Part shown: positions 724 through 17,308 of the stretch, piece after piece | How the letters are laid out: each line of letters opens with the position of its first letter | Position numbering within the stretch: position 1 is the stretch's first letter | IMG/VR virus record: IMGVR_UViG_3300028398_000016 | Coordinates: 1-22,024 of that record | Source of the DNA: a virus | Strand: one strand, 5' to 3' | Length of the DNA stretch: 22,024 nt | The notes under the pieces: generated by a model | Database searches by the model: none | Told to the model about the DNA's origin: nothing | The model's input: the letters and a program-made list of their open reading frames with translations, nothing else | Position numbers and translations under genes: made by a program

Positions 724-730
724 CCTCCTT
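724..730 (-). promoter_or_regulatory. Shine-Dalgarno for the lipoprotein gene
   Basis: The minus strand reads AAGGAGG, five bases before the ATG at 716-718 and overlapping the stop codon of the upstream gene by one base. It fixes the lipoprotein start and suggests efficient independent initiation at this junction. Confidence 0.8.
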
Positions 731-2586
731 TAGTGGATGATCGGCATTGATCCCGTTCGGAACTGCTTTCTGACAAAATATCCAGCCCGGATCCAGTCGT
801 TGATAACCTGAGCAGTAAACTTCGGGTCCCAGTTGATTCGGCTCATGCCACGGATTTTTGAGTAAAAATCTTCAAGCGTACTCCCATCGCCTATATGCTG
901 CATGTACGCTGGAATATCTCTGGTCGGGTCTGGGTATGCAGGTTCTTCAAATTTTGCTGTCGGTTCCCATTGAGCTTTCCACTGCGCTGGTGTTAATTTT
1001 TCACTATCAGGTGTTGGCCATATAAACGTCACGTCCTTTGCAGTATTATTGTATGTATTATTTGAAAAAGTTACCCCGTTTAAAATTGCACCAGATCCGC
1101 CGGCACGATCGTCACTGTACCATCTTAGTTGCCCCCATGTATATTGATTATTTTTAGAGTCAAATATATTGTTTTCGAATTTAACTCCTGTAAGGTCTAG
1201 CAAGCCAGAGATATTTATATGAGCATCCCATTTTGGTTCATCAGTTGTACTATTGTACGCATTTTGAATAAAAATGTTGTCATGTACAACTAGATTTCTG
1301 TCTCCATAAGGTTCTGCATTATACGCCGGAGTTCCGTCTCCAAGGGCTGCGTGCAACCCTATGCTCCTAATCATATCAGTATCGGGCGCCATATGTGCAA
1401 AAAGATTTCTCGCAATCTCAACGCCATCTGCACCGTCTATGCCAATTGCCCAGGCTAAGTTTTGTAGTGATGGTCTCGTATAAGCAGAATTTATGATAAC
1501 ATTGTCGATAAAGCGTGCGTTCTTTACTCTGTGTTTAATCTGCCCGTTATTTGAGAACCCACCTATTGCGATATTAGTGTCTACGTATAAATTGTTCTTA
1601 ACAGCTAGATTGTGGCAATAAATATCACCATCATCTGGTGCCACCTGATGACTATCAATAACAAATTTTGTGCCAGTATTGCATGGCCTGGATAGTATAT
1701 TATTTTTGAATACTGTATCATCACCGGGAGTAAGATAAACATTATGATTTCTGACGCGGTCACCACCTTCCGGATAGGTCATATCGTACCAGCCGTTGTG
1801 GTCCCAAATGTTTTCCTCAAAAACACATTCTGAACAAGTTCCAAGATACTGGCCAGCAAAAGAGTTCAGGTCTATTGCAACATTGCGATAGAAGATATTT
1901 TGTTTTATGCTTTTTGCAACATCACATTGCATATTGAAAGCGATATTTTTGAATCTATCACCTTCAAACATAAGCCCTGATTTTTCCTCTCCAGCTCCTG
2001 TGTAGCCATATATTACGTGGGATGTGTTCACTTTGTTTCCATTATATACTGATGATGATGGATCAGAAAAATCATCGTATATTTCAATGTTCGCTATAGC
2101 AATATACTTTAATGTTCTAAACGTCATTCCCCATATCTCTGAATCTGCTGATGCAGGCCTCCACGAAGGTAGATCACCGCTACCCCCCCACCATGAAATA
2201 AGAAAAGGTTCAGCGCCACTTCTGCCACTGTGAGCAGGCAGCGTGTCCCTATTCAGGTTAAATCTGAATACTTGCCCACGTTTCAGTAAGATCCAGTCTG
2301 GATACCCGTCACGTGTGAGGCTAAGAGCTTTTGCCATAGTTGCACAGGGTACAACTGTACCTGATGGGTTAAACGGGTCAGCGCCAATATTATCTGCGGT
2401 GTAGTAGTTGCATGTAGAATCATTCCCATTTTCGCTGAGATAAACTATTCTTGTATCAGTAGAAGGGGTAAAGATCGTCCAGCCATCGGCATCTTTGGGC
2501 AGGTTTATTCTTTCGGCAACTGCATCATGTGCAGTTGCCGAAAGCACCATCACTACTACAAAAATTATTAGTTTGTGCTTATCCAT
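730..2586 (-). CDS. Secreted right-handed beta-helix protein, possible polysaccharide lyase or depolymerase
   Basis: This 618-aa protein starts at ATG 2584-2586 with AGGACGGAT just upstream and overlaps the preceding gene by 19 nt. Residues 1-24 are a Sec signal peptide ending DAVA before Glu-Arg-Ile. Residues about 205-515 carry repeated parallel-beta-helix rungs of the form hydrophobic-x-NN-(I/L/V/T)-(F/Y), for example FKNNIL, VKNNLY, IARNLF, VHDNIF, FENNIF and FSNNTY. Several Cys residues (59, 81, 221, 251, 254, 302, 324) suit disulphide formation after export. The last 70 residues (DPTRDIPAYM to NDWIRAGYF) look like a conserved C-terminal tail seen in other secreted beta-helix proteins. 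The fold is well supported. Substrate and catalysis are not, since I could not assign active-site residues. Base composition is AT-rich (19 G+C in bases 1021-1080), unlike both neighbours, suggesting recent acquisition. Confidence 0.85.
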   Translation of the reverse strand: MDKHKLIIFVVVMVLSATAHDAVAERINLPKDADGWTIFTPSTDTRIVYLSENGNDSTCNYYTADNIGADPFNPSGTVVPCATMAKALSLTRDGYPDWILLKRGQVFRFNLNRDTLPAHSGRSGAEPFLISWWGGSGDLPSWRPASADSEIWGMTFRTLKYIAIANIEIYDDFSDPSSSVYNGNKVNTSHVIYGYTGAGEEKSGLMFEGDRFKNIAFNMQCDVAKSIKQNIFYRNVAIDLNSFAGQYLGTCSECVFEENIWDHNGWYDMTYPEGGDRVRNHNVYLTPGDDTVFKNNILSRPCNTGTKFVIDSHQVAPDDGDIYCHNLAVKNNLYVDTNIAIGGFSNNGQIKHRVKNARFIDNVIINSAYTRPSLQNLAWAIGIDGADGVEIARNLFAHMAPDTDMIRSIGLHAALGDGTPAYNAEPYGDRNLVVHDNIFIQNAYNSTTDEPKWDAHINISGLLDLTGVKFENNIFDSKNNQYTWGQLRWYSDDRAGGSGAILNGVTFSNNTYNNTAKDVTFIWPTPDSEKLTPAQWKAQWEPTAKFEEPAYPDPTRDIPAYMQHIGDGSTLEDFYSKIRGMSRINWDPKFTAQVINDWIRAGYFVRKQFRTGSMPIIH

Positions 2587-4214
2587 ATCCGTCCTACCTC
2601 GATGTCAAATTGCTGATTATCCTCATTGGTCATAAGCCCAACAATAAGGTTAGTGAATGAAGCATTATTATCACGAGTAAATGTTATCGGAGTCTCGCTG
2701 TCAACCTGCAAGGTTGATGCTGTAACATCTGTAGGATCGGTGTGGACATGCACTGTATGCCAATTGCCATCTTGCAAGTTTATCGTGCTTTGTGCGTTAG
2801 ATGTTGCCCTTATGTAAATATACGACGCTGGAATGCTACTATCATTTGCCAACTGGACACTGTAGTACCCGTTAGTAGTGCTGATACCAAGATCGGTCCT
2901 TGCTCCTATTTGTAAAAACTCTGGCCTCCACGTGGTATAAGTCATCGCTGCGTTATCGACCTTCATTTCTATATAAAGGTCTACTGCAACAGTGTTAGGA
3001 TCAATGTTTGTGCCTGAAATATCGGTGTATTTTGCAAACTGGTCGTTGGCTACCGACCCACTACCGAAACTCAGATAAAGCCCCTCTGTACATGATCCAG
3101 TTGGCGGGGTGCCGGTTAGAGCATAATCCTCATTATATGTGACACTTGTACCCACATTCCCCGTCCCCGGTGTCCAGACATTTTCAGCACCCGTCCCGAG
3201 CCAGCCCTCGTTGAAAACATTGCCGTCTTGGGGAGTTGTACACGATGTTACTGTGCCAAACGTAGCTGATCCAGCTTTATCCGCATCCAGAATGACCGTA
3301 CCATCCGTTGCGGACGACCCAGTAATATCACCCGTCCATCCTGTCCATTCCCGACCGGATGCAGCGACAGCTGTGATCCCTGTCAATGTCGTGCCGGTAG
3401 CTTGCGTCGTGGTGCAATCAGTTGCACCATTTCCGCAATTGATAGGATCAGCCCCGGTCAGATCCCACTGGATTGCGTCTCCATTACCCGGATCGGTGAC
3501 GGTGAGGGTGTAGTTGACCGGATTGGCCGTGTAAGTCCCCGTAAAAGCGTACAGGCCGGTGCCAGACTGAAAGAAAGCTGAACCGGTTGAGCTGTTGAAA
3601 ATCCACGTCCCTGCCGGATTATCTCCAGGACTTGGGTCTGTGGCTTGCTCGACGTATGAGGTGCCGCCGGTATCGGTGGCCGAGATGATCGGGTTGAGCG
3701 GATCGGTGTTATCTACAGTCACGTTGGTGCCAGCGACGACCGACTGCAACGCACTATCTCCGGGGGCGCATTGATTGGCACCGGTGCCGATGAGTGCCAT
3801 CATGGATCCGTCGTCGATCCGGTATAAGGTGCCATTGTACCAGGTCCACCCATAGTCTCCAGCGGCAAGGTTGGTGGACGGATCGACCGTGTTGTTGCCA
3901 CCTGATCCCATCCACCAGTTACCATCGGTTGCCGACGTGCTGTAGCCAGGGGCAACCAGCTCACCAGCGGCATTGACGTAAATACTGCCCTGCTTGAGCA
4001 GCTTGCCGGTTATATCAGCAAATATAGCCAGGTAGTCTGTTGTGCTGGATGCTGGGCCGGTAACCTTGTCGGAATACAGTTCTGTAAAATTACCGTTTAT
4101 TTTATCTTTTTCGGTTCCCCAATATACGCCAGAGCCACCAAGAATAGTTTGCTGTGCTGCGAGTGCAGTTTGTGAACAACAAACTAACACGATAATAAGC
4201 AATGTTTTTTTCAT
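2568..4214 (-). CDS. Exported fibre/lectin-like modular protein
   Basis: This 548-aa protein starts at ATG 4212-4214 in an ATGA overlap with the 61-aa gene, with GGTGGA seven bases upstream. Residues 1-20 are a Sec signal peptide (MKKTL, hydrophobic core, TALAA). Residues about 35-75 resemble phage tail-fibre shaft sequence: INGNFTELY, then VTGPASSTTDYLAIF and DITGKLL. Residues about 235-325 resemble a divergent InlB/bacterial repeat (GREWTGWTGDITG to AGSATF). Residues about 325-548 look like a concanavalin/laminin-G-type lectin domain (LQDGNWHTVHVHTD, then VDSETPITF). Function is likely carbohydrate or surface binding, but that is inferred. Coding sequence is a composition mosaic: 36/60 G+C at 3361-3420 and 37/60 at 3901-3960, but 22/60 at 2641-2700 and 23/60 at 4081-4140. 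This fits module swapping. Confidence 0.8.
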   Translation of the reverse strand: MKKTLLIIVLVCCSQTALAAQQTILGGSGVYWGTEKDKINGNFTELYSDKVTGPASSTTDYLAIFADITGKLLKQGSIYVNAAGELVAPGYSTSATDGNWWMGSGGNNTVDPSTNLAAGDYGWTWYNGTLYRIDDGSMMALIGTGANQCAPGDSALQSVVAGTNVTVDNTDPLNPIISATDTGGTSYVEQATDPSPGDNPAGTWIFNSSTGSAFFQSGTGLYAFTGTYTANPVNYTLTVTDPGNGDAIQWDLTGADPINCGNGATDCTTTQATGTTLTGITAVAASGREWTGWTGDITGSSATDGTVILDADKAGSATFGTVTSCTTPQDGNVFNEGWLGTGAENVWTPGTGNVGTSVTYNEDYALTGTPPTGSCTEGLYLSFGSGSVANDQFAKYTDISGTNIDPNTVAVDLYIEMKVDNAAMTYTTWRPEFLQIGARTDLGISTTNGYYSVQLANDSSIPASYIYIRATSNAQSTINLQDGNWHTVHVHTDPTDVTASTLQVDSETPITFTRDNNASFTNLIVGLMTNEDNQQFDIEVGRIWISTN

Positions 4215-9500: not shown

Positions 9501-11117
9501 ATCAGCGTTAACTCCACGAAGGAAGTTAAGCACCTCTTCCGGTATAAAGCCAAGTTCATCACCAATCGCTTTATCAATCTCTTGCTGGCGTATTTTACGT
9601 GCTTCTTCGCGCAATACTGCTTTCTCAGCTTCAGTAAGTGGGCCAGGTGCGCCAGGTTTCTCTGCAAGCTGCTTTTTCAAATATACGCGCAATTTTGCAA
9701 TACGACCAAGCAAGTTGCCTCTGCTCATCGTTTCAAAATTGAAGTCCTCAGCGTGACCTAGCTCATGCGCTAGTACCCGGGCAGCCAATTCAGGATTTTC
9801 TGCAAGATCACGGCGCAATTTGATTTCAGGGGCTTTTCCCGGACGAAAACTACCCAGCACACCGAAATCACGAAAACGCTGCACAATCCGTGGGTCTTTG
9901 TTCATAAAACCACGTGTAAGCTCGATAACTTCCGGCAGCTCCACAATATGCTGTATCTTTATCGGATCAACACCTTCTTTAGCACGGTATGCTTTTTCAG
10001 AACTTTGCGGCTTTATTCCACCCGACGCTGTCTCGTTAATATTTTCAACCGGTGGCTCCTCTTTACCGGTGCTTTTACTTTTTTGGTATACTTCTTCAAG
10101 CGCATCCGTTGATAATGTTGTAGTGCGTGGTTGCTGTGCTGTGCGAAAATTTTCTTTTGCTGCTCCTTGCTCTGCTTTTAAAGTTGCCTGTCCATTTGCA
10201 ATGCGTTTCTGCTGCGCCTCTTTGAACCACTCCTGGCTCATCCTGACCGCTTCTGCTTCGCTCATTTTAGGATTTTTGCGAAGAGTTTCGGCCATGGACT
10301 GCATAACTGGCACCTTTTGCTCTTCTGGCAGCCGCCGCCATTCACGCATCAGCTTTGCACGCTGTACCTTATTTTTTATTACTGATCCAAGGGCAGGAAT
10401 AGCTTCAAAAAGCCCAAACATAGCCGCTGTCTCTGCGGTCTTTTTCGGATTTCCCTCTCCAAGCAATGCGCCACCGATCACACCGCCAGCAATTCGTTCT
10501 GCTGTGCCTGTCAATCCGGCTGCCCGGGAAACCAATCGACCGGCCGTCATCGCAGTTCCAGCAGGTACAGCGAAACCGGTACCCTCTGCAACCTGTCCGG
10601 CAAGCTCCCTTGCAGAATATTTTACAGGTACCAGGCGGACAGGCCCTATCGCAGCGATTTCACCTTTTACGGGCTTTTTTGACACCGTAACACCAAGATC
10701 ATGCACAGCGAATCCAGCCGGAGTACGCGCACGCCAATATTCCACGGCGTCCGCAATCAGCTTGTTTGTGTCAAATGGTGTTCCTTCAAGCGGTGCGAAA
10801 AGCGGATGAACCGCTCCCTCTAACGCCGACGTGGCCAAGAAAACACCGGTTGTCCCAATATCTCTCAACTTATCGACAACGGCTGCCTGCGCCGCAGAAC
10901 CAACTGTATCTCCTGGTCGTGGTTCACCAACCATTTCAGCATCGCGAGTATCGGAGTAATCCTGAAAAGATGCTTTTGGATTCTGTTCGGAAAGTGGCCG
11001 TGACATTTGATATTCACGCTCCAGTGCATCGACGTCTATTTCTGGAGTAAGCGGTCGCGGCACATCGCCTTTTTTTGACGCCTGGTACGCTTGTTCGAGT
11101 TTATCAAAATCCAGCAT
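6501..11117 (-). CDS. Giant internal virion/ejection protein with HExxH peptidase motif and LPD38-like C-terminus
   Basis: A 1538-aa protein starting at ATG 11115-11117 (GAGG seven bases upstream), overlapping the previous gene by 14 nt. It occupies the place of P22 gp16. Three copies of a motif D-x-LE-x-x-YQ-x-S lie at residues 5-14, 30-39 and 338-347. Residues about 180-247 are Gly/Ala-rich and weakly hydrophobic, suitable for membrane insertion. Residues 446-457 hold a zincin signature (RVLAHELGHAED, His451, Glu452, His455). An ELYADA motif at 641-646 could supply the third metal ligand. Charged helices follow (about 690-730). Residues about 1030-1420 resemble the large polyvalent protein-associated domain LPD38 (SNPQWMLRNMPRDF, then a hydrophobic segment at about 1244-1266, then FLAFPTGYNQQ). 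Probably packaged in the capsid and ejected with DNA. Protease action on host envelope or phage proteins is inferred. Confidence 0.85.
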   Translation of the reverse strand: MLDFDKLEQAYQASKKGDVPRPLTPEIDVDALEREYQMSRPLSEQNPKASFQDYSDTRDAEMVGEPRPGDTVGSAAQAAVVDKLRDIGTTGVFLATSALEGAVHPLFAPLEGTPFDTNKLIADAVEYWRARTPAGFAVHDLGVTVSKKPVKGEIAAIGPVRLVPVKYSARELAGQVAEGTGFAVPAGTAMTAGRLVSRAAGLTGTAERIAGGVIGGALLGEGNPKKTAETAAMFGLFEAIPALGSVIKNKVQRAKLMREWRRLPEEQKVPVMQSMAETLRKNPKMSEAEAVRMSQEWFKEAQQKRIANGQATLKAEQGAAKENFRTAQQPRTTTLSTDALEEVYQKSKSTGKEEPPVENINETASGGIKPQSSEKAYRAKEGVDPIKIQHIVELPEVIELTRGFMNKDPRIVQRFRDFGVLGSFRPGKAPEIKLRRDLAENPELAARVLAHELGHAEDFNFETMSRGNLLGRIAKLRVYLKKQLAEKPGAPGPLTEAEKAVLREEARKIRQQEIDKAIGDELGFIPEEVLNFLRGVNADDLPKEVKDFIAKADTPTKKSIVKQAMKGLPPEELAQFKKTPHNIGKSVEEHFKELLKKEVERRRLWELEEIKEELRNFSKQWRPWDEGQDAGYDEYRNSPEELYADAVSGVILAPDSLQQIAPKFYKAFENYLETRPKFAENYQKIMERITAGPEEVSRHRIKQTYKDFAAEAEKAKEREKTRLELKKKEEEKTVDTLLRGLNTSDHPILKFVKVAEKGDVLGKRKARLIREMLLKRPYTPSEIDAYAYDFKQWYDAVHESGLTVDDLGALGKRLHIVYNRKNIFSSHGLTPKTAAKDIAVLARDWGPEKYNKARKFLNKYRKLREKHIIPLLRKSGLITPDMAETIKRRGFYLRVLSQDWLRADQWSGMKQFYRQVGTISSQQNPIVSTFLDDIAAIYASRENILRRAVYRFMTEIGAGRKAEMKYSSTEKRMVVNKRALKHREKVARVKVDGKYRYYFMLDNIVDALEKDSFKQYQMLRLWQTMGQIFRELYVGSNPQWMLRNMPRDFLETVFKNPDVVGLKGIGKLLKAYWETAPDVFKEAWHNERSALIQDMMRRRTLPTNRIWGSFEETPANEIERTLSRYNLYKLTDSQKKLYNKFVRRFFENQKAEQIADEIEAFARAVWDKKERFGRASDLWGKVAARKFFEKYTDLPRNEIDMRVIEQAGTPNYKNRGAWQIITNNLFMFSTVAKEGLKADIRALRRSPLAWLSTMATLTILPAVMNWMADEGHMGKEIKRIFNRIPKYYKDHYFVIPLFVDNNGKAHFLAFPTGYNQQVLKATFSKLLRGEFGGAGGAISETTGLSPYSVHPLIGKLTAFALYYLYGVNPPNLHYGTNIISPSDYDVGGKAAAKDLFRDAWNDLTGGWLYRAKGPYESQRKSKAEKFLTRFPGNILGTFYKISDGGIGERIRDRLAEMRKEAKKRNLSVREYRLKIAKDRDAAIAAAQALRRIGDKRQARELEKDIARLWGDQWAKAVATAKNDEEREAILQLMMEDDQ
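6512..6516 (-). promoter_or_regulatory. Shine-Dalgarno that selects the GTG start of the tail fibre
   Basis: The minus strand reads GGAGG followed by seven bases and GTG at 6502-6504. No ATG in this frame lies near enough to compete, so this site decides the non-ATG start. Confidence 0.75.
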
Positions 11118-12093
11118 TCTGGACCTCTTCCTTGAGCTTCGCAGCTGCTTCTTCTTTACTTAGCCCACTATCGCGCAATTCAGCGTAACGTTTCGTTATA
11201 TCAAACTGCTTTGTTGGCTGCTGGTCCTTTTTTGTAAATTGTTTGTAATAGTCAATAATGTCCCCGTAATACTGGATCGCTCTTTTTGCTTCTTGGTTGA
11301 GTTGTGCAGCTTGTGTCATTTTTGTGCGTTCCTCTGGTGATGCCACCATGAAGGCAAGCGCATCAAAACCACCAGTTTGCGCCAACTTTGCGATTTCTTT
11401 CTGCGCCTTGGCGATTTCTGTTAAAGCCTTTTGTTCAGAAGGCGGCTGTGCAGCTTTTGGCTGTTTCGGAGGAGCGGTGTACTCCGGTGTGCCGGTATCG
11501 GCGTTGTACACTGTCGCTCCTGGGGCTACCTTGATACGTTCCGGCTTGTACCCATACGCCTGAAGCCTGGTTGCTACCCATTGCGGATCGTATTGCGCAG
11601 GAAACAACTTTTCCAGCTCCGGCAGCTCTTCGGGCTTCACCAGACCAGAATTTTGAATCTGCTCAAAAATGGCCTGCCTTGCTGCCTGATAACTGGCCTC
11701 ATCGCGTACCATCGGCAATACCCGAGCACCCAATGTTTGAGACAACTTGCGAAAATCGGCATGACGTTTGCGTTCCCTCTCGTCGTTGTTCGCGTAATAA
11801 TCAAGCAACTGCTTCTGCTTATCAGTAGACAAGCGCATGATCCATGGTTTGTTTACTGCAAACGGTTTTGTGAGATCAATACGGGACAATACTTGCTGTT
11901 CCCGATCCTGCCTCTGCCACTGTTTCCTTTTCCGTGAACGCACCTCTCGATTCCACTGCTGATCTTCGTTGCGCTGCTGCATAGCTTGCTTTCGTTCGAC
12001 CATACTTGTTTGCAGCAGTGCTTCGCGAAGAGCATTATTGCGGCCTCTTGCAAATGCGTTTGCCGGATTCGCCACCATTACTTGCTGTACCAT
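11104..12093 (-). CDS. Internal virion protein, basic coiled-coil (gp20-like position)
   Basis: A 329-aa protein. I start at ATG 12091-12093 because GGGGA lies exactly seven bases upstream. A TTG at 12097-12099, overlapping the previous stop, is only one base from that site. Residues 1-85 are rich in Arg, Gln, Asn and Glu (NEDQQWNREVRSRKRKQWQR) and likely form a basic coiled coil. Residues about 140-230 include KLFPAQYDPQWVATRLQAYG and a VAPGATVYNADTGTPEYTAP stretch similar to those in podophage internal proteins. The C-terminus (LRDSGLSKEEAAAKLKEE) is helical. It lies between the gp7-like and giant ejection proteins, as gp20 does in P22. Name is by position and style rather than by a diagnostic motif. 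It probably binds DNA or the other ejection proteins inside the head. Confidence 0.75.
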   Translation of the reverse strand: MVQQVMVANPANAFARGRNNALREALLQTSMVERKQAMQQRNEDQQWNREVRSRKRKQWQRQDREQQVLSRIDLTKPFAVNKPWIMRLSTDKQKQLLDYYANNDERERKRHADFRKLSQTLGARVLPMVRDEASYQAARQAIFEQIQNSGLVKPEELPELEKLFPAQYDPQWVATRLQAYGYKPERIKVAPGATVYNADTGTPEYTAPPKQPKAAQPPSEQKALTEIAKAQKEIAKLAQTGGFDALAFMVASPEERTKMTQAAQLNQEAKRAIQYYGDIIDYYKQFTKKDQQPTKQFDITKRYAELRDSGLSKEEAAAKLKEEVQNAGF

Positions 12094-12095
12094 AA

Positions 12096-13130
12096 TCAAG
12101 TCCCCAATGTTCTGTACTGCATTCCAGGTGCATACGGATCAATGAATGTGCGATTACCGCCACCGATCCCGGTATACCCAAGAATTTCAAAAATATTGTT
12201 CAATCCACTGGACAATGTGTTCTGCTGCTGGATGTACCCACTGGCCCTGGCCTGCTGTGCACGATTATACGCATCAGCAGCATTGACCATTCCCTGCCCC
12301 TGTACGTTGGCAGACTGAATTAGCGCATTAGCCAAAGCATTTGACGACCCCATTACACCGGATGCCAAATCACCAGCGGAACCGGTGATTCCGGCCGCTT
12401 GTGCGTTTGCTCCCTGCATCAGCAAGTTACCGGCCATTCTAGCAGCCTCTGCCCCAGCCTGCGACGTGGTGCCGGCCGCTGAAAGACCGGTTGCCGATTC
12501 CCATTTCCATGGTTCCAACGACTGGTAATATCTACGAAGGAAATTATCGTAGTCATTCGTGGCATAATCCTGCCCAAACTGCTCCAATGCGCGAAGAGTA
12601 GGGCCGCTGAGTTGCATCCCCCTGGCCGCTGCACTGCGCTCAATGGCCTTCTGTCCTTCCTGAAGGCGAAATTGATACCCGGGTGACGCCTCAAATTCTC
12701 CGGGACCGGCTTGGATTATCTGCATGAGATGGTTGTTGGCTGTAACTCCGGCTTCTCGCCACGGTGCCAAATCCTGCCGGGTGGTCTGATACTGCTGCTG
12801 CTGAAGATCGGCAGCATGACGAGCCGCCTGCGCCGCAACATCGGCAGCGTACCGCTGGGCCTCTGCTTGAATCTGCGCTGCTTCTCGAGCAGCTCTAGCC
12901 TGTTCTTCGGCTGCCGCCTTGATTGCTGCTGCCTGCGCATCTGCCGACTGCTGCGCTGCCTGCTGCTGCGCATAGTAGCCCTGCATCTGCGCACTGGTTG
13001 AATGGTTGCCGGAAATAAACCCGCCAACTGTACTTCCAAGTCCGGCCCCAAGCATTGCGCCACCAACAATTCCCGCACCTGTTGCCGCAGCAATCCCACC
13101 ACCAATAACTGCTCCTGCTACTGCAAACAT
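12096..13130 (-). CDS. DNA transfer/ejection protein, gp7-like position
   Basis: A 344-aa protein starting at ATG 13128-13130 with GAGGTG six bases upstream, four bases after the radical SAM stop. Residues 1-42 are a Gly/Ala-rich hydrophobic stretch with repeated small residues (AGAVIGGGIAAATGAGIVGG), a feature of membrane-active ejection proteins. Residues about 50-115 are a long Ala/Gln-rich coiled coil. Residues 118-200 contain RQDLAPWREAG, GPGEFEASPGYQFRLQEGQ and AIERSAAARG, a conserved signature of phage DNA transfer proteins. The C-terminal third is Ala/Gly/Gln-rich low complexity. It should be packaged in the virion and help form the periplasmic conduit with the two following gene products. 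Family role is established knowledge. Action in this phage is inferred. Confidence 0.85.
   Translation of the reverse strand: MFAVAGAVIGGGIAAATGAGIVGGAMLGAGLGSTVGGFISGNHSTSAQMQGYYAQQQAAQQSADAQAAAIKAAAEEQARAAREAAQIQAEAQRYAADVAAQAARHAADLQQQQYQTTRQDLAPWREAGVTANNHLMQIIQAGPGEFEASPGYQFRLQEGQKAIERSAAARGMQLSGPTLRALEQFGQDYATNDYDNFLRRYYQSLEPWKWESATGLSAAGTTSQAGAEAARMAGNLLMQGANAQAAGITGSAGDLASGVMGSSNALANALIQSANVQGQGMVNAADAYNRAQQARASGYIQQQNTLSSGLNNIFEILGYTGIGGGNRTFIDPYAPGMQYRTLGT
12101..12105 (-). promoter_or_regulatory. Shine-Dalgarno deciding the ATG start at 12093
   Basis: GGGGA on the minus strand is seven bases from the ATG at 12091-12093 and one base from the upstream TTG at 12097-12099. Normal spacing therefore favours the ATG and removes two residues from the longer reading. 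Confidence 0.65.
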
Positions 13131-13134
13131 ATTC

Positions 13135-14157
13135 TCACCTCTTTATCTGAAACCCATCTTTCCAACCTTTTTCGATCCCTTCATTCACAATTTGACAAAT
13201 TGGCACCGGATAACACCGAAAATCAGGGCCAAGCATGTACACCGGACGGCTGCACACATGGTAATCAAGATTCTCAACTGTCGGTGACGATGCCAAAGAA
13301 ATATGCCGTCCTTCCTTCGTTTCCATGTACAGACAATACGGATTACTCTGTTCAACCCGTAATGACTGTACCGGCGTAAATTCAGCAAATTTTCGCATAA
13401 ATACTTTGTACAGATCAGAAAGATAAATTTCTTTCTTCCCTTTGTTTCGCCAGTTATGGAACATAGTGCGAATACGCAGCATCGAATACAGGTGCCTAGT
13501 TTGCGTGTAAAAATCGTAAATATAGTCCAGTTCATCCAGCGTTTGGATTGAGAACATACAACATGAGGCAACCAGTCCTTCCTGTTCAATCCGCTGCAAG
13601 GCTTGTTTCTTCAATTCTAACGTTCTAGCGTCGTAATTCTTTGGGTGCTGAAATGACATCGCAAACCGATAATCTTTTCCCTGCACCCATGCCGGGTGAA
13701 GCGTCTGTTTGAAAAAATCCTTATCGGCAAGTTTCAGCATGTTAGTAATGGTACTTGGGTTCCAGCCAAGCGCCCAAAGCTGCTTTGTAAATTCAATGTA
13801 ATCGGGCCGTAACGTCGGTTCCCCACCAGACAACATAAGGGAAAAGCCTCTGTACATTTCCCAAAACAACTGATGGTAAAAAACCGCGTTGTGCTGTTGT
13901 TCAAGTCCAGGTTTATAATAGCACCATGGACATTTCATATTGCACGAATCGTTGACGTGAATAATAATGTTGTTATTGTTTCCAAGTGTTCCATGCTTAT
14001 AAAAATTTGACACAAACAACGCACTTGGATCAAACAACGCTTCCTGTTTTCCGTGAACATCGCATTCTTTACGAAGAATTGCTCTTCCGTCTTCAAATAC
14101 AATAAAGGACGGTACTTTCTTATAACACGTGTTGCACAACGAAATTGTCATAATCAT
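13135..14157 (-). CDS. Radical SAM enzyme with N-terminal Cys/His motif, inside the structural operon
   Basis: A 340-aa protein starting at ATG 14155-14157 in an ATGA overlap with the 74-aa gene, with AAAGGA about ten bases upstream. The radical SAM motif Cys72-x3-Cys76-x2-Cys79 (SCNMKCPWCYY) should hold the [4Fe-4S] cluster that cleaves S-adenosylmethionine. The SGGEPTLRPD motif at 110-119 is the usual SAM-binding GGE loop. An N-terminal module has Cys8-x2-Cys11 and Cys32-x2-His35 with Gly36 (LCNTCYKKVP to KECDVHG), resembling the metal-binding lead of radical SAM enzymes of the MJ0619/tetraether-lipid-synthase kind. Cys302, Cys315 and Cys321 near the C-terminus could ligate a further cluster, but the pattern is not a full SPASM motif. 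Substrate is unknown: a virion protein, a host lipid or an RNA are all possible. Location between tail fibre and ejection genes implies late expression. Confidence 0.88.
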   Translation of the reverse strand: MIMTISLCNTCYKKVPSFIVFEDGRAILRKECDVHGKQEALFDPSALFVSNFYKHGTLGNNNNIIIHVNDSCNMKCPWCYYKPGLEQQHNAVFYHQLFWEMYRGFSLMLSGGEPTLRPDYIEFTKQLWALGWNPSTITNMLKLADKDFFKQTLHPAWVQGKDYRFAMSFQHPKNYDARTLELKKQALQRIEQEGLVASCCMFSIQTLDELDYIYDFYTQTRHLYSMLRIRTMFHNWRNKGKKEIYLSDLYKVFMRKFAEFTPVQSLRVEQSNPYCLYMETKEGRHISLASSPTVENLDYHVCSRPVYMLGPDFRCYPVPICQIVNEGIEKGWKDGFQIKR

Positions 14158-14378
14158 TTCTTTACCGTCCTTTCAATGGCATTTTTTACTTCTGTCTTAT
14201 CTGCAAGCAACTGCTCATGTTCACGCTGCATGTAAGCAATATCGGCTTCAAGTTCAGCAAGCCGCTGGTCAATATCGCGCAATGTTGTGCGTTGTTCCAC
14301 AGGTTCGTCCCAAATAATTGCAACAACAGTTTCATCAACGTTCTTTTCTCTTTTTCGCACCTCGTATCTTTTCGCCAT
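14154..14378 (-). CDS. Small coiled-coil protein coupled to the radical SAM gene
   Basis: A 74-aa protein. ATG 14376-14378 is preferred because AGGGTG lies about five bases upstream. An ATG at 14394-14396 would overlap the fibre stop and has no better site. The N-terminal half is basic then beta-like (KRYEVRKREKNVDETVVAII). Residues about 32-74 form a heptad-like coiled coil (LRDIDQRLAELEADIAYMQR to KNAIERTVKK). The stop overlaps the radical SAM ATG, so the two are translationally coupled. It sits about where P22 has gp14, but similarity cannot be judged. It could be an assembly chaperone, a minor virion protein or a partner or substrate of the enzyme. It contains no Cys. Confidence 0.75.
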   Translation of the reverse strand: MAKRYEVRKREKNVDETVVAIIWDEPVEQRTTLRDIDQRLAELEADIAYMQREHEQLLADKTEVKNAIERTVKK

Positions 14379-14382
14379 TTTA

Positions 14383-15906
14383 TCACCCTGTCGCAATTGT
14401 TACCCAAGAATACGTATCTGCACTTGATTTTAAGCATATTTCAACAGTATCCGCAACACCCGATCCGTTCTGTGTGACCCAGATCATCCCCCGAACACTG
14501 GCACTGGCCGTTGGCCTGGTCCCGGCTCCGCCTTCATTCGGTGTAACGCCACCGGATACTGCTTTAATGTTTCCATTCGCGTATACATCAGTGTTGTTAC
14601 TTCCACCAAGTGTTACTGTATAGCTTCCTTTGCCAACAGCACCATAGCCAATTACCACTTCATATTGAACACCATCAGCGGATGCTTTACTACTACCGCC
14701 AAAGTAACAACAATACGATGACGTTTGGTTGCTGGCAAGCGCATCAGTGTACTGTCCAGCGTAATATCCAAAATAACAATTGTATATACCTGTTGTATTA
14801 CTGTACCCAGCATTTTTACCTGTCGCAGTATTTCCTGCACCTGTATTATTGTAAAGACTTGCTTGTCCTACGCCCGTACTATTACTGGCACTTGTATTAA
14901 GGTAAAGACTTGCTTGACCAATACCTACATTGTTGCTTCCTGTACTATTCTTTAGCGCTGAATGTCCAATTCCGACATTATTTCCACCGGTAAGATTGTT
15001 AAGTATCGCGTTTGCTCCAATAGCAACGTTATTTGTTCCGTTTGTGTTTTTGTATAGTGCGCTGGAACCAACAGCAAGATTCCCGTATCCATTATCGTTT
15101 GCTGTAAGTGCCCCCCAACCAATACCGACATTATAACTAGAATGAAACCACGCAGTCGCATTCTGCCCCATTGTTAGGTTGCCAGCACCAACACCAATAA
15201 ATGTATTGTATCCAACTGTAGTTACTGTACCGTTATCGCCATAATTAAAGTCATGGATAAACGTATCTGTTCCTTTATAAATTATTCCATACGGCGATAC
15301 AAAAGTGGTATCTGTAAGAACAATGTCTTGATTTATTGAAATAGTATCGGAAAGAAAAAGTGTTACTGTACCGTCACCATCGTCAGCAACTTCAACGTTT
15401 TGGGCAGTGCCTGAAATGTGCGATGAAAAACAAGAATCTGATATACTTATTGCTACCGTGCCACCTGTTCCGGCTGTTACATCAATTTCATCTGTTGTAC
15501 CTAACGCACGAGTTGGCAACAATGTATCGGCAATACCGATTGAAATACTACCGCTTCCCAAATCTGTTACTGTTGTTTCATCAGTTTCGGCAATAACATA
15601 CGTAGGAAGAAAATTATCATCAATGCCTATTGTAACAGAATCATCTAAATTTGTTGTAACAGTAGTCTCATTTACAGTCGGAAGAATGTTTGATGAGAAA
15701 ATATTTGAAGAAAAACTTAAAGTAATAGAGCCGTCGCCATTATCAGCAACATCAATTTCACCAGCAGTACCGTACACATTGTTTACAAGATACGTATCAT
15801 CACGTAGCGTAAGGGCAATGCTATCAAACCACATTGCCCAAGGTCGTGTTACCGAATTTCCGATCTGAATTGCTTCCCGCAGTGGCGGTCTTCCTTTAAT
15901 TGCCAT
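14383..15906 (-). CDS. Trimeric tail fibre with YadA-head-type repeats, in the tail-needle position
   Basis: A 507-aa protein starting at ATG 15904-15906, one base after the gp10-like stop, with a weak TAGG site seven bases upstream. The N-terminus (GRPPLREAIQIGNSVTRPWA, then MWF) matches a short conserved lead of podophage fibres, likely the attachment end. Residues 46-187 hold about five 30-residue beta units (EIDVADNGDGSITLSF style). Residues 233-388 hold about eight to nine 16-17 residue units such as NNVAIGANAILNNLTG and NNVGIGHSALKNSTG, the pattern of the YadA/trimeric autotransporter head, which forms a left-handed trimeric beta roll. The C-terminus (ASVRGMIWVTQN to SWVTIATG) is a typical fibre end. 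It lies where P22 encodes the gp26 needle and may plug the tail as well as bind receptor. An unusual Cys/Tyr-rich stretch occurs at 375-402. Confidence 0.85.
   Translation of the reverse strand: MAIKGRPPLREAIQIGNSVTRPWAMWFDSIALTLRDDTYLVNNVYGTAGEIDVADNGDGSITLSFSSNIFSSNILPTVNETTVTTNLDDSVTIGIDDNFLPTYVIAETDETTVTDLGSGSISIGIADTLLPTRALGTTDEIDVTAGTGGTVAISISDSCFSSHISGTAQNVEVADDGDGTVTLFLSDTISINQDIVLTDTTFVSPYGIIYKGTDTFIHDFNYGDNGTVTTVGYNTFIGVGAGNLTMGQNATAWFHSSYNVGIGWGALTANDNGYGNLAVGSSALYKNTNGTNNVAIGANAILNNLTGGNNVGIGHSALKNSTGSNNVGIGQASLYLNTSASNSTGVGQASLYNNTGAGNTATGKNAGYSNTTGIYNCYFGYYAGQYTDALASNQTSSYCCYFGGSSKASADGVQYEVVIGYGAVGKGSYTVTLGGSNNTDVYANGNIKAVSGGVTPNEGGAGTRPTASASVRGMIWVTQNGSGVADTVEICLKSSADTYSWVTIATG
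14743..15210 (-). repeat. Tandem YadA-head-type coding repeats
   Basis: About eight to nine in-frame units of 48-51 bases encode NxxxGxxAlxxNtxG peptides. Two units share an exact 15-base stretch (gtaaagacttgcttg on the plus strand at 14851-14865 and 14902-14916), giving a 51-base period and suggesting recent duplication. Confidence 0.8.
15346..15771 (-). repeat. Diverged 30-residue beta repeats in the fibre shaft
   Basis: Five units of the form (T/A)-x-x-E/N-hydrophobic-x-V-x-x-x-G-x-G-(S/T)-(I/V)-x-(I/L)-x-(I/F)-x-D occupy residues 46-187, for example EIDVADNGDGSITLSF, TTVTDLGSGSISIGIAD and VEVADDGDGTVTLFLSD. DNA identity between units is low, so they are old duplications. Confidence 0.65.
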
Positions 15907-15907
15907 C

Positions 15908-17308
15908 TTAATGCCTATTCACACGCAATTTAAGATACGCACCTACAATCACTACTTTATACGCATCTGTAATACGCAAACGAAATACTCTGTTTCGAGC
16001 CATGCCAAGTTGGTGCCACACACACCTGCGAAAATACTCACCAACTTTTCCAAATGTGCGCCATATCTCGTTGCTCCATGTTCGCCCGCCGTCGTTCGAC
16101 CACGACAGCATCGCTGCCGGATCGTTAACGAGATCACCAACACCAGGCTCAATATCCAGTTCAAAACGATTATAGGTGATAAGCAAATTTTCATTTGCAA
16201 TTACGGGAGCTGTCCTTTCCCGTAAAATGTGCTCGTTATTCTCGGTGTAGGTATCCATGTCAATTTCGTAAATTTTTCCGTTTTCGAAATCACCGGCAAG
16301 GTGCTTTGTGCCTGTCCAGCAATATGAAAATATTCGATGTCGGCCATTGCCACCAGATGCCTTATACGAACGTCGTTCATGCCATTCATTCGTCGCTACA
16401 TCGTACACCCATGTTGCATCAGCACTCGGAAACGTGATTTGATACCAAACATGACCTTGGAACGTGTAACAAATCGCGTATGCGTCGTCAGTTTGCGCGT
16501 ATTGTGACCATTGGTATTCAATATTTCGTGTAGAAACGATTTTGTGGTTATACCCGGTAGCCCGGACAACAAAACCACGATTATCAAACCAAAATAACGT
16601 ATTGTCGCCTTGCGCGATACTGTGTGCGGCACCACAACCTATTTCCTGAATAGAGCCAGAAATGCGCTCAAAAGGAAACGCCGCATTTCCTGAATTGTAG
16701 AATACTTCGATTGTTTTTTCCCCGAAAATCCATACTTCCCTGTGATCGGAAAATATTGCGACGGCTGCGTCCGGGTGACTTTCTGCTGATGCAAAATCAA
16801 GCGCGTCCCAAGTAGTGCCATCATACAGAGCAGAAACAAAAAACTCGTCAGAATCCGCTTTGCTGACAATAAAGTATCCATCTTGGTATGTAAGAGAAGA
16901 AGGAACGGGAAAATCTGCATCGGTGATCTTTGTCAACGTGCTAGTTGAGATGGTATAAATGTACCCGTAAGTGCCATCAACCAGCATAATTTGCGTACCA
17001 TTATAAGCCCATTCCACAATACCGGTTGACGTTTCCACTGTGCCGCGATCAGTGATAGTACCATCTGCCGCAACTTCTACAAAGGTATCGCCGATAACAG
17101 CGTATACAACACTATCAACGTGCATGAGCGCACGAACAGGGGCCGAAATCGAATACTCCGCATAAATTTTAAGCCCAGGTGTCCCGACAAGGGCCGTTAT
17201 ATTCTTTCCGGTCGGATCACTGATTGGAAACAGATTCACACAAGTCTGTGCATTCTGATAAACAGACCGGCCCTTGTATGCACCGCCGATAAACCCCTTA
17301 AACTCCAT
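15908..17308 (-). CDS. Packaged-DNA stabilisation protein, P22 gp10-like
   Basis: A 466-aa protein starting at ATG 17306-17308 in a TAATG overlap with the gp4-like stop, with GAGG seven bases upstream. Length is close to P22 gp10 (472 aa). The N-terminus FIGGAYKGRSVYQNAQTCVN followed by LFPISD and VGTPGLKIYAE is the family's hallmark. Later parts include ALDFASAESHPDAAVAIFSD with REVWIFGEKTIEVFYNSG, and a beta-propeller-like run with WYQITFP, WVYDVATNEWHERRS and LAGDFENGKIYEID. The C-terminus MLSWSNDGGRTWSNEIWRTF is typical too. In P22, gp10 hexamers bind below gp4 to close the portal channel and hold the tail needle and spikes. The same role is expected here. Confidence 0.92.
   Translation of the reverse strand: MEFKGFIGGAYKGRSVYQNAQTCVNLFPISDPTGKNITALVGTPGLKIYAEYSISAPVRALMHVDSVVYAVIGDTFVEVAADGTITDRGTVETSTGIVEWAYNGTQIMLVDGTYGYIYTISTSTLTKITDADFPVPSSLTYQDGYFIVSKADSDEFFVSALYDGTTWDALDFASAESHPDAAVAIFSDHREVWIFGEKTIEVFYNSGNAAFPFERISGSIQEIGCGAAHSIAQGDNTLFWFDNRGFVVRATGYNHKIVSTRNIEYQWSQYAQTDDAYAICYTFQGHVWYQITFPSADATWVYDVATNEWHERRSYKASGGNGRHRIFSYCWTGTKHLAGDFENGKIYEIDMDTYTENNEHILRERTAPVIANENLLITYNRFELDIEPGVGDLVNDPAAMLSWSNDGGRTWSNEIWRTFGKVGEYFRRCVWHQLGMARNRVFRLRITDAYKVVIVGAYLKLRVNRH

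Follow-up and report, generated by a model that had tools for sequence, protein, structure and literature searches.

The window, i.e., the whole stretch of 22,024 bases that makes up the IMG/VR record analysed here, encodes its structural proteins on the minus strand, in a P22-like order: portal, scaffold, coat, adaptor, an Hc3/gp10-like protein, fibre, a protein of 74 residues, a radical SAM enzyme (rSAM), an ejection protein, and two further proteins of 331 and 1538 residues. This gene order confirms the position between the fibre and ejection genes that a preliminary description of the sequence had given to rSAM. The relevant features are:

15908-17308, minus strand: head closure protein Hc3, similar to P22 gp10 (phrog_578, E 7e-122), on which the phage tree is based
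14383-15906, minus strand: fibre or virion structural protein, the 5' context (phrog_4636, phrog_6002)
14154-14378, minus strand: coiled-coil-like ORF of 74 residues, with an ATGA overlap with rSAM; not conserved
13135-14157, minus strand: rSAM, 340 residues, ATG start (from the ORF, profiles, model and family alignment)
14035-14148, minus strand: N-terminal mononuclear-metal module of rSAM, C8-X2-C11-X20-C32-X2-H35, residues 4-41 (PF23545)
13921-13944, minus strand: [4Fe-4S] motif of rSAM, C72-X3-C76-X2-C79 (sequence and family alignment)
13816-13827, minus strand: GGEP loop of rSAM, residues 111-114 (sequence and family alignment)
13561-13563, minus strand: Cys199 of rSAM, outside both metal motifs (invariant in 24 sequences)
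12096-13130, minus strand: gp7-like DNA ejection protein, 344 residues (phrog_598, E 3.9e-31), the proposed substrate of rSAM
12996-13130, minus strand: hydrophobic, Gly/Ala-rich N-terminal segment of the ejection protein, MFAVAGAVIGGG..., with Phe at position 2

Three further ORFs lie 3' of the ejection genes: two large and secreted-looking ones (618 and 548 residues, 730-4214), and a lipoprotein-like one (2-718).

Membership of the 340-residue protein in the radical SAM superfamily, first read from its Cys-x3-Cys-x2-Cys motif and GGE loop, is confirmed. C72, C76, C79, the GGEP loop, C8/C11 and C32/H35/G36 are invariant in 24 non-redundant relatives, and the structure model (AlphaFold, built from an alignment of 26 relatives; pLDDT 91.7) shows a partial TIM-barrel radical SAM fold, for which the best 50 PDB matches listed were all radical SAM enzymes. 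The score against the Pfam Radical_SAM profile lies under the curated cut-off (E 4.7e-4, 20.8 bits, cut-off 29.5), but motif and fold together place the protein in the superfamily; its N-terminus is above the cut-off of PF23545, the HMPTM zinc ribbon of Pfam (E 1.5e-11, 44.1 bits vs. 27). C-terminal cysteines, also listed in the preliminary description, do exist (residues 275, 302, 315 and 321), but they vary among the 24 relatives and so do not make up a conserved site for a cluster, and an auxiliary cluster or SPASM site in this region was rejected. A different cysteine, Cys199, sits in barrel strand 196-204 of the model and is a candidate H-atom donor. Some radical SAM epimerases use a lone conserved cysteine as H-atom donor and, because Cys199 is invariant, epimerase-like chemistry may be guessed for rSAM.

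When the structure prediction and profile search proposed earlier were carried out, radical SAM proteins were returned with Tes first: GDGT-MAS/Tes, the mj0619 product (PDB 7TOL, 7TOM), was the best PDB match (profile E 4e-25) and also the top fold match of the model (E 8e-18, TM 0.72 by query length). The mononuclear iron site of GDGT-MAS is C9X2C12X20C33X2H36 (PMC9433317), and C8X2C11X20C32X2H35 of rSAM has identical spacing, so the likeness of the N-terminal module to MJ0619/tetraether lipid synthase that had been noticed from the sequence holds. However, GDGT-MAS has about 500 residues and two auxiliary [4Fe-4S] clusters, N- and C-terminal, whereas rSAM has 340 residues and a single CX3CX2C with neither auxiliary site, and, unlike GDGT-MAS, it is encoded in structural operons adjoining an ejection gene. 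Together with the missing auxiliary sites, a score of 52.5 bits against the NCBIfam equivalog profile of Tes (cut-off 450) makes rSAM a stripped-down relative of Tes and not a Tes. The best NCBIfam profile was the TrsS radical SAM (seleno)protein (NF045646, E 1.3e-14), of which rSAM is a non-member (53.6 bits, cut-off 490), while the prokaryotic viperin profile gave 37.7 bits, under its cut-off of 180.

SuiB, SkfB, EpeE and the anaerobic sulfatase maturase have the radical SAM core in common with rSAM and were weak PDB matches. Peptide-modifying radical SAM enzymes have their substrate encoded next door, as we propose for rSAM, but the SPASM/twitch auxiliary-cluster cysteines of the peptide maturases are not conserved in rSAM, and their substrate is a short precursor, whereas that of rSAM would be a long virion protein. 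Auxiliary metabolic radical SAM proteins of phages (e.g., QueE-like, phrog_13987, phrog_1802) also share the core, with only local similarity to rSAM.

Carriers of rSAM comprise 35 loci from the first viral-contig scans, L139 and L153 (one further phage), which were added later, and one Geobacteraceae MAG contig. No full-length relative was present among the INPHARED cultured phages (50,697 records), none of the best 80 portal relatives had this rSAM, and the Hc3 proteins of the window and of L031, used as queries, found no rSAM-less sisters. The lowest pairwise identity among the 24 non-redundant sequences is 37% (median 52%), and the dN/dS of the closest pairs is 0.03-0.19, with 0.39 in one more divergent partial pair; the low values in close pairs indicate that the gene is under purifying selection. 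More distant relatives of rSAM lie in prophages of genomes of the same class as the Geobacteraceae MAG; these, together with that single MAG bin, lend slight support to the anoxic host habitat suggested earlier, which we treat as a tentative part of the picture.

In all loci extending far enough, rSAM is followed 3' by the gene of a gp7/gp14-like ejection-type protein whose N-terminus is hydrophobic and usually rich in Gly and Ala (26 distinct ejection N-termini, untruncated loci only), the hydrophobic segment being shortest in L153. The neighbours in L003, L009, L014, L015, L029, L032 and L034 match phrog_598 like that of the window, and those of L004, L007 and L040 gave no phrog_598 match. 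The 5' neighbour, on the other hand, differs nearly everywhere among carriers. In L040 it looks holin-like by our own reading. Four carriers (L004, L020, L021 and L041) are T7-like, with a terminase, a T7-type connector and tail tubular proteins, and in the other gene order of T7-like carriers (including L004, L041 and L187) rSAM lies between terminase and portal, still directly 5' of a protein with a hydrophobic N-terminus. Neither a random position nor a decayed gene, two of the outcomes named beforehand as speaking against a morphogenetic role, was found in the relatives, and the fixed position and purifying selection bear out the earlier proposal that the role of rSAM is tied to the structural operon. 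Among the other phage radical SAM genes examined, a fixed link to the ejection gene is absent, except in a distantly related prophage gene (L049/L054).

The ATGA overlap of the 74-residue ORF with rSAM is present as described, but homologues of this ORF, which had been regarded as the coupled partner, were absent from all the other loci examined, and its coupling to rSAM is thus incidental. The coiled coil was therefore rejected as the conserved partner of rSAM; this place belongs to the ejection gene that follows rSAM, 12096-13130.

The slot that rSAM occupies, defined as the gene immediately 5' of the gp7-like gene, was classified in 84 rSAM-less cases, plus L174 from an unannotated ORF. There were 28 cupin-like, 11 cupin+SET and 23 GNAT-like genes (nine of the 23 by eye), and the remaining slot genes encode small beta proteins, helical proteins and fibre-like proteins; non-enzymes hold the slot in about a quarter of the rSAM-less phages. 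Pfam placed seven GNATs above the cut-off and two more just under it, as well as two SETs above the cut-off, and the SET profile of the slot matches MLL1-type SET structures (E 2e-8). PDB matches of the cupin class were all to cupins but had E values of 0.2 or more, and those of the small GNAT-like class, all to acetyltransferases, had 0.02 or more (the structure model of the L225 protein of this class has a pLDDT of 63); with matches this weak, the labels of these two classes are provisional. In these relatives the interval from Hc3 to the ejection gene holds one to five genes, and enzyme-class genes touched the ejection gene in 51 of 51 cases, where 19 were expected (0 of 5,000 permutations as high), although this test is biased towards finding such genes in the slot because slot genes served to train the class models.

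Four late-operon proteins (L093 13350-14204, L059 12179-13060, L073 18737-19621 and L178 1479-2354) combine a cupin-like half with a SET methyltransferase domain, the NHS..PN and GDEhTIDYR motifs of which are intact. Among cultured phages, Rhodoferax phage P26218 has a cupin+SET gene in the slot. In L068 an aspartyl/asparaginyl beta-hydroxylase-like gene (12724-13269, E 4e-18) lies directly 5' of the GNAT slot gene, so enzymes can also occur outside the slot.

In P22, the same slot, directly 5' of gene 7, is held by gene 14 (DUF2824; L209 8911-9366), the product of which, unlike rSAM, is not a radical SAM protein. By eye its sequence is faintly GNAT-like, but profile comparisons gave no support for a GNAT; its single PDB match, at E 0.008, was to a putative glyoxalase. 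It has been reported that the host OpdA removes 20 N-terminal residues from P22 gp7 (PMC8402733, PMC4992974), and that gp7 without its first 20 residues has little laboratory cost (PMC8402733).

The occupant of the slot is associated with the second residue of the ejection protein. This residue is F, W or Y in 17 of 21 rSAM phages whose ejection protein lacks an N-terminal extension vs. 1 of 86 others (Fisher 4e-15). When ATGA overlaps were removed, residue 2 was aromatic in 18/25 rSAM phages vs. 1/63 others (p 3e-12), Ser in 8/8 SET phages vs. 9/80 (4e-7) and Gly in 12/21 GNAT phages vs. 10/67 (3e-4), all of these counts ignoring kinship. Thr2 of the cupin phages was dropped as evidence, as the 4-nt ATGA overlap makes codon 2 begin with A and thus largely forces this residue, which also undermines the independent-pair test of cupin with T/P. 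An aromatic residue anywhere near the N-terminus was likewise dropped as a mark of rSAM, because cupin-slot phages with W/F at positions 3-4 exist; only the aromatic at position 2 is specific to rSAM phages, and it is kept among rSAMs with identities of only 37-66% and across ejection-type proteins that are unrelated. On the Hc3 tree (101 phages; a quick tree with long branches), 5 changes suffice for the rSAM label, while the slot classes together require 41. Among pairs that are independent and lie on well-supported branches, SET went with Ser in 6/6 (p 0.03) and rSAM with an aromatic residue in 2/2, too few for significance, and the association of GNAT with Gly was not significant on this tree.

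Enzyme and N-terminus are also exchanged jointly. In the sister phages L187 (rSAM) and L189 (GNAT), the DNA flanking the exchanged region is similar at either end, and their homology ends where the rSAM/75-aa region starts and returns 156 nt into the ejection-type gene, so that the N-termini of the ejection-type proteins differ while the last 48 or so residues are identical. The same pattern was seen at a greater distance between L019 (rSAM) and L093 (cupin+SET), which are sisters on the Hc3 tree. As the break in homology spans the enzyme and the ejection N-terminus in both pairs, the two move together. This joint exchange fits an enzyme-substrate cassette and simple linkage alike, since the enzyme gene and the ejection N-terminus are adjacent in the DNA and linkage alone can produce covariation.

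Our preferred reading, with a chance that we put just short of even, is that rSAM modifies protein anaerobically and has as its target the hydrophobic N-terminal stretch of the ejection protein encoded downstream. The presence of gene 14 in the slot of P22, together with the processing of the gp7 N-terminus, inclines us to N-terminal modification over a hot spot for accessory genes. Slot enzymes of several kinds would modify the ejection N-terminus, and rSAM would be the anaerobic version. Less in favour of this reading are the non-enzymes in the slot, the differing N-terminal extension of five rSAM ejection proteins, the small cost of truncating P22 gp7, and the lipid substrate of GDGT-MAS, the closest relative that has been characterised. 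In its widest form, which we hold somewhat more guardedly, short-tailed phages would carry an interchangeable cassette of a slot enzyme (radical SAM, GNAT-like, cupin, cupin+SET, perhaps P22 gp14) and a matching ejection N-terminus that is covalently modified in a different way by each, with rSAM serving under anoxia; non-homologous enzymes would thus share one slot and be swapped together with the N-terminus that suits them.

If so, rSAM would act late in infection, before the ejection (pilot) protein is packaged. Both proteins are encoded by adjacent, often overlapping genes and may be co-translated, and the rubredoxin-like iron module and the barrel could hold the nascent N-terminus, for which the aromatic residue that the ejection protein has at, or close to, position 2 and that is associated with rSAM would be a possible mark. 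From what is usual in the family, a 5'-deoxyadenosyl radical would abstract an H atom from the N-terminal segment. As there is no conserved auxiliary Fe-S site and Cys199 is invariant, the likeliest product may tentatively be taken as redox-neutral, e.g., from L-to-D epimerisation, with a cross-link as the second candidate. The altered segment might help to pass or open the host envelope, or to resist host peptidases.

The alternative that survives best, which we nevertheless consider unlikely, is a moron hot spot, where unrelated accessory genes recombine 5' of the ejection gene, the ejection N-terminus hitch-hikes, and the substrate of rSAM is a small molecule, RNA, lipid or defence target of the host. 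In both exchanged pairs, the return of homology within the ejection gene looks like a recombination junction, and non-enzymes in the slot and 41 slot-class changes on the Hc3 tree would be natural at such a site; still, slot classes return repeatedly to GNAT, SET, cupin and rSAM, and 51 of 51 enzyme-type genes touch the ejection gene although the interval offers one to five gene positions. Many phage radical SAM proteins are indeed metabolic or defence-like, and viperin-like profiles score on rSAM, but a host lipid or tRNA as substrate leaves the enzyme-linked change in the N-terminus of the neighbour unexplained, and the aromatic residue 2 persists across divergent rSAMs and unrelated ejection-type proteins.

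More improbable is the modification of another virion component (the fibre, or the 331- or 1538-residue ejection protein), with the position beside gp7 reflecting late-operon expression only. The location of rSAM in the late operon would agree with this, and the large downstream protein is also ejection-type and 27-29% conserved in L007 and L009; L003 and L005, however, have different proteins of 739-756 residues in place of the giant one, and T7-like carriers keep rSAM beside the protein with a hydrophobic N-terminus even between terminase and portal. The earlier suggestion of a virion target is thus retained for the ejection protein, which is the likely one, and finds no support for the fibre, as the neighbour on that side varies freely. 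Least probable is a membrane-lipid enzyme that joins or changes lipid chains in the envelope of the host, or modifies a lipid carried by the ejection protein, for despite GDGT-MAS being the best structural match, the shared spacing of the iron module and a partner with a hydrophobic N-terminus, both auxiliary [4Fe-4S] sites are missing, the Tes score is far under its cut-off and no lipid-biosynthesis gene is nearby.

In a partial literature search, we found no paper linking a radical SAM enzyme or an acetyltransferase to ejection proteins. Should N-terminal modification by slot enzymes be correct, phages would chemically tailor the protein that breaches the envelope, a step absent from the podophage ejection accounts searched, and the slot held in P22 by gene 14, which has no known function, would gain a testable role. 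It would also account for the GNAT, SET and cupin genes that occur among phage late genes and add a radical SAM family with a neighbouring virion protein as its substrate, and recombinant ejection proteins may then lack their natural modification.

Several further observations were made around the rSAM genes. Five loci (L007 7447, L030 11032, L031 11035, L034 11025 and L035 11022) encode an ejection protein that begins with a leader-like extension, e.g., MINPWNTTAKLLHRYSHPPQ, which precedes an [FW][CM]G hydrophobic start and is possibly a leader peptide. Between the two genes of L015, at 11048-11177, lies what is left of a tandem duplication that covered the 3' end of rSAM and the first part of the ejection gene. 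The prophage gene of L054 (10354-11348; L049) encodes a different radical SAM protein, which has 206 residues and lacks the zinc ribbon; it fills the same slot, with a gp14-like gene directly 3' of it. In a prophage-like region of G069 (L053 10625-13132; L048), a distant relative of 316 residues with the same zinc-ribbon N-terminus (E 5.5e-38) adjoins a B12-binding radical SAM gene and a GNAT gene, 3' of an 826-residue ORF that resembles ejection proteins.
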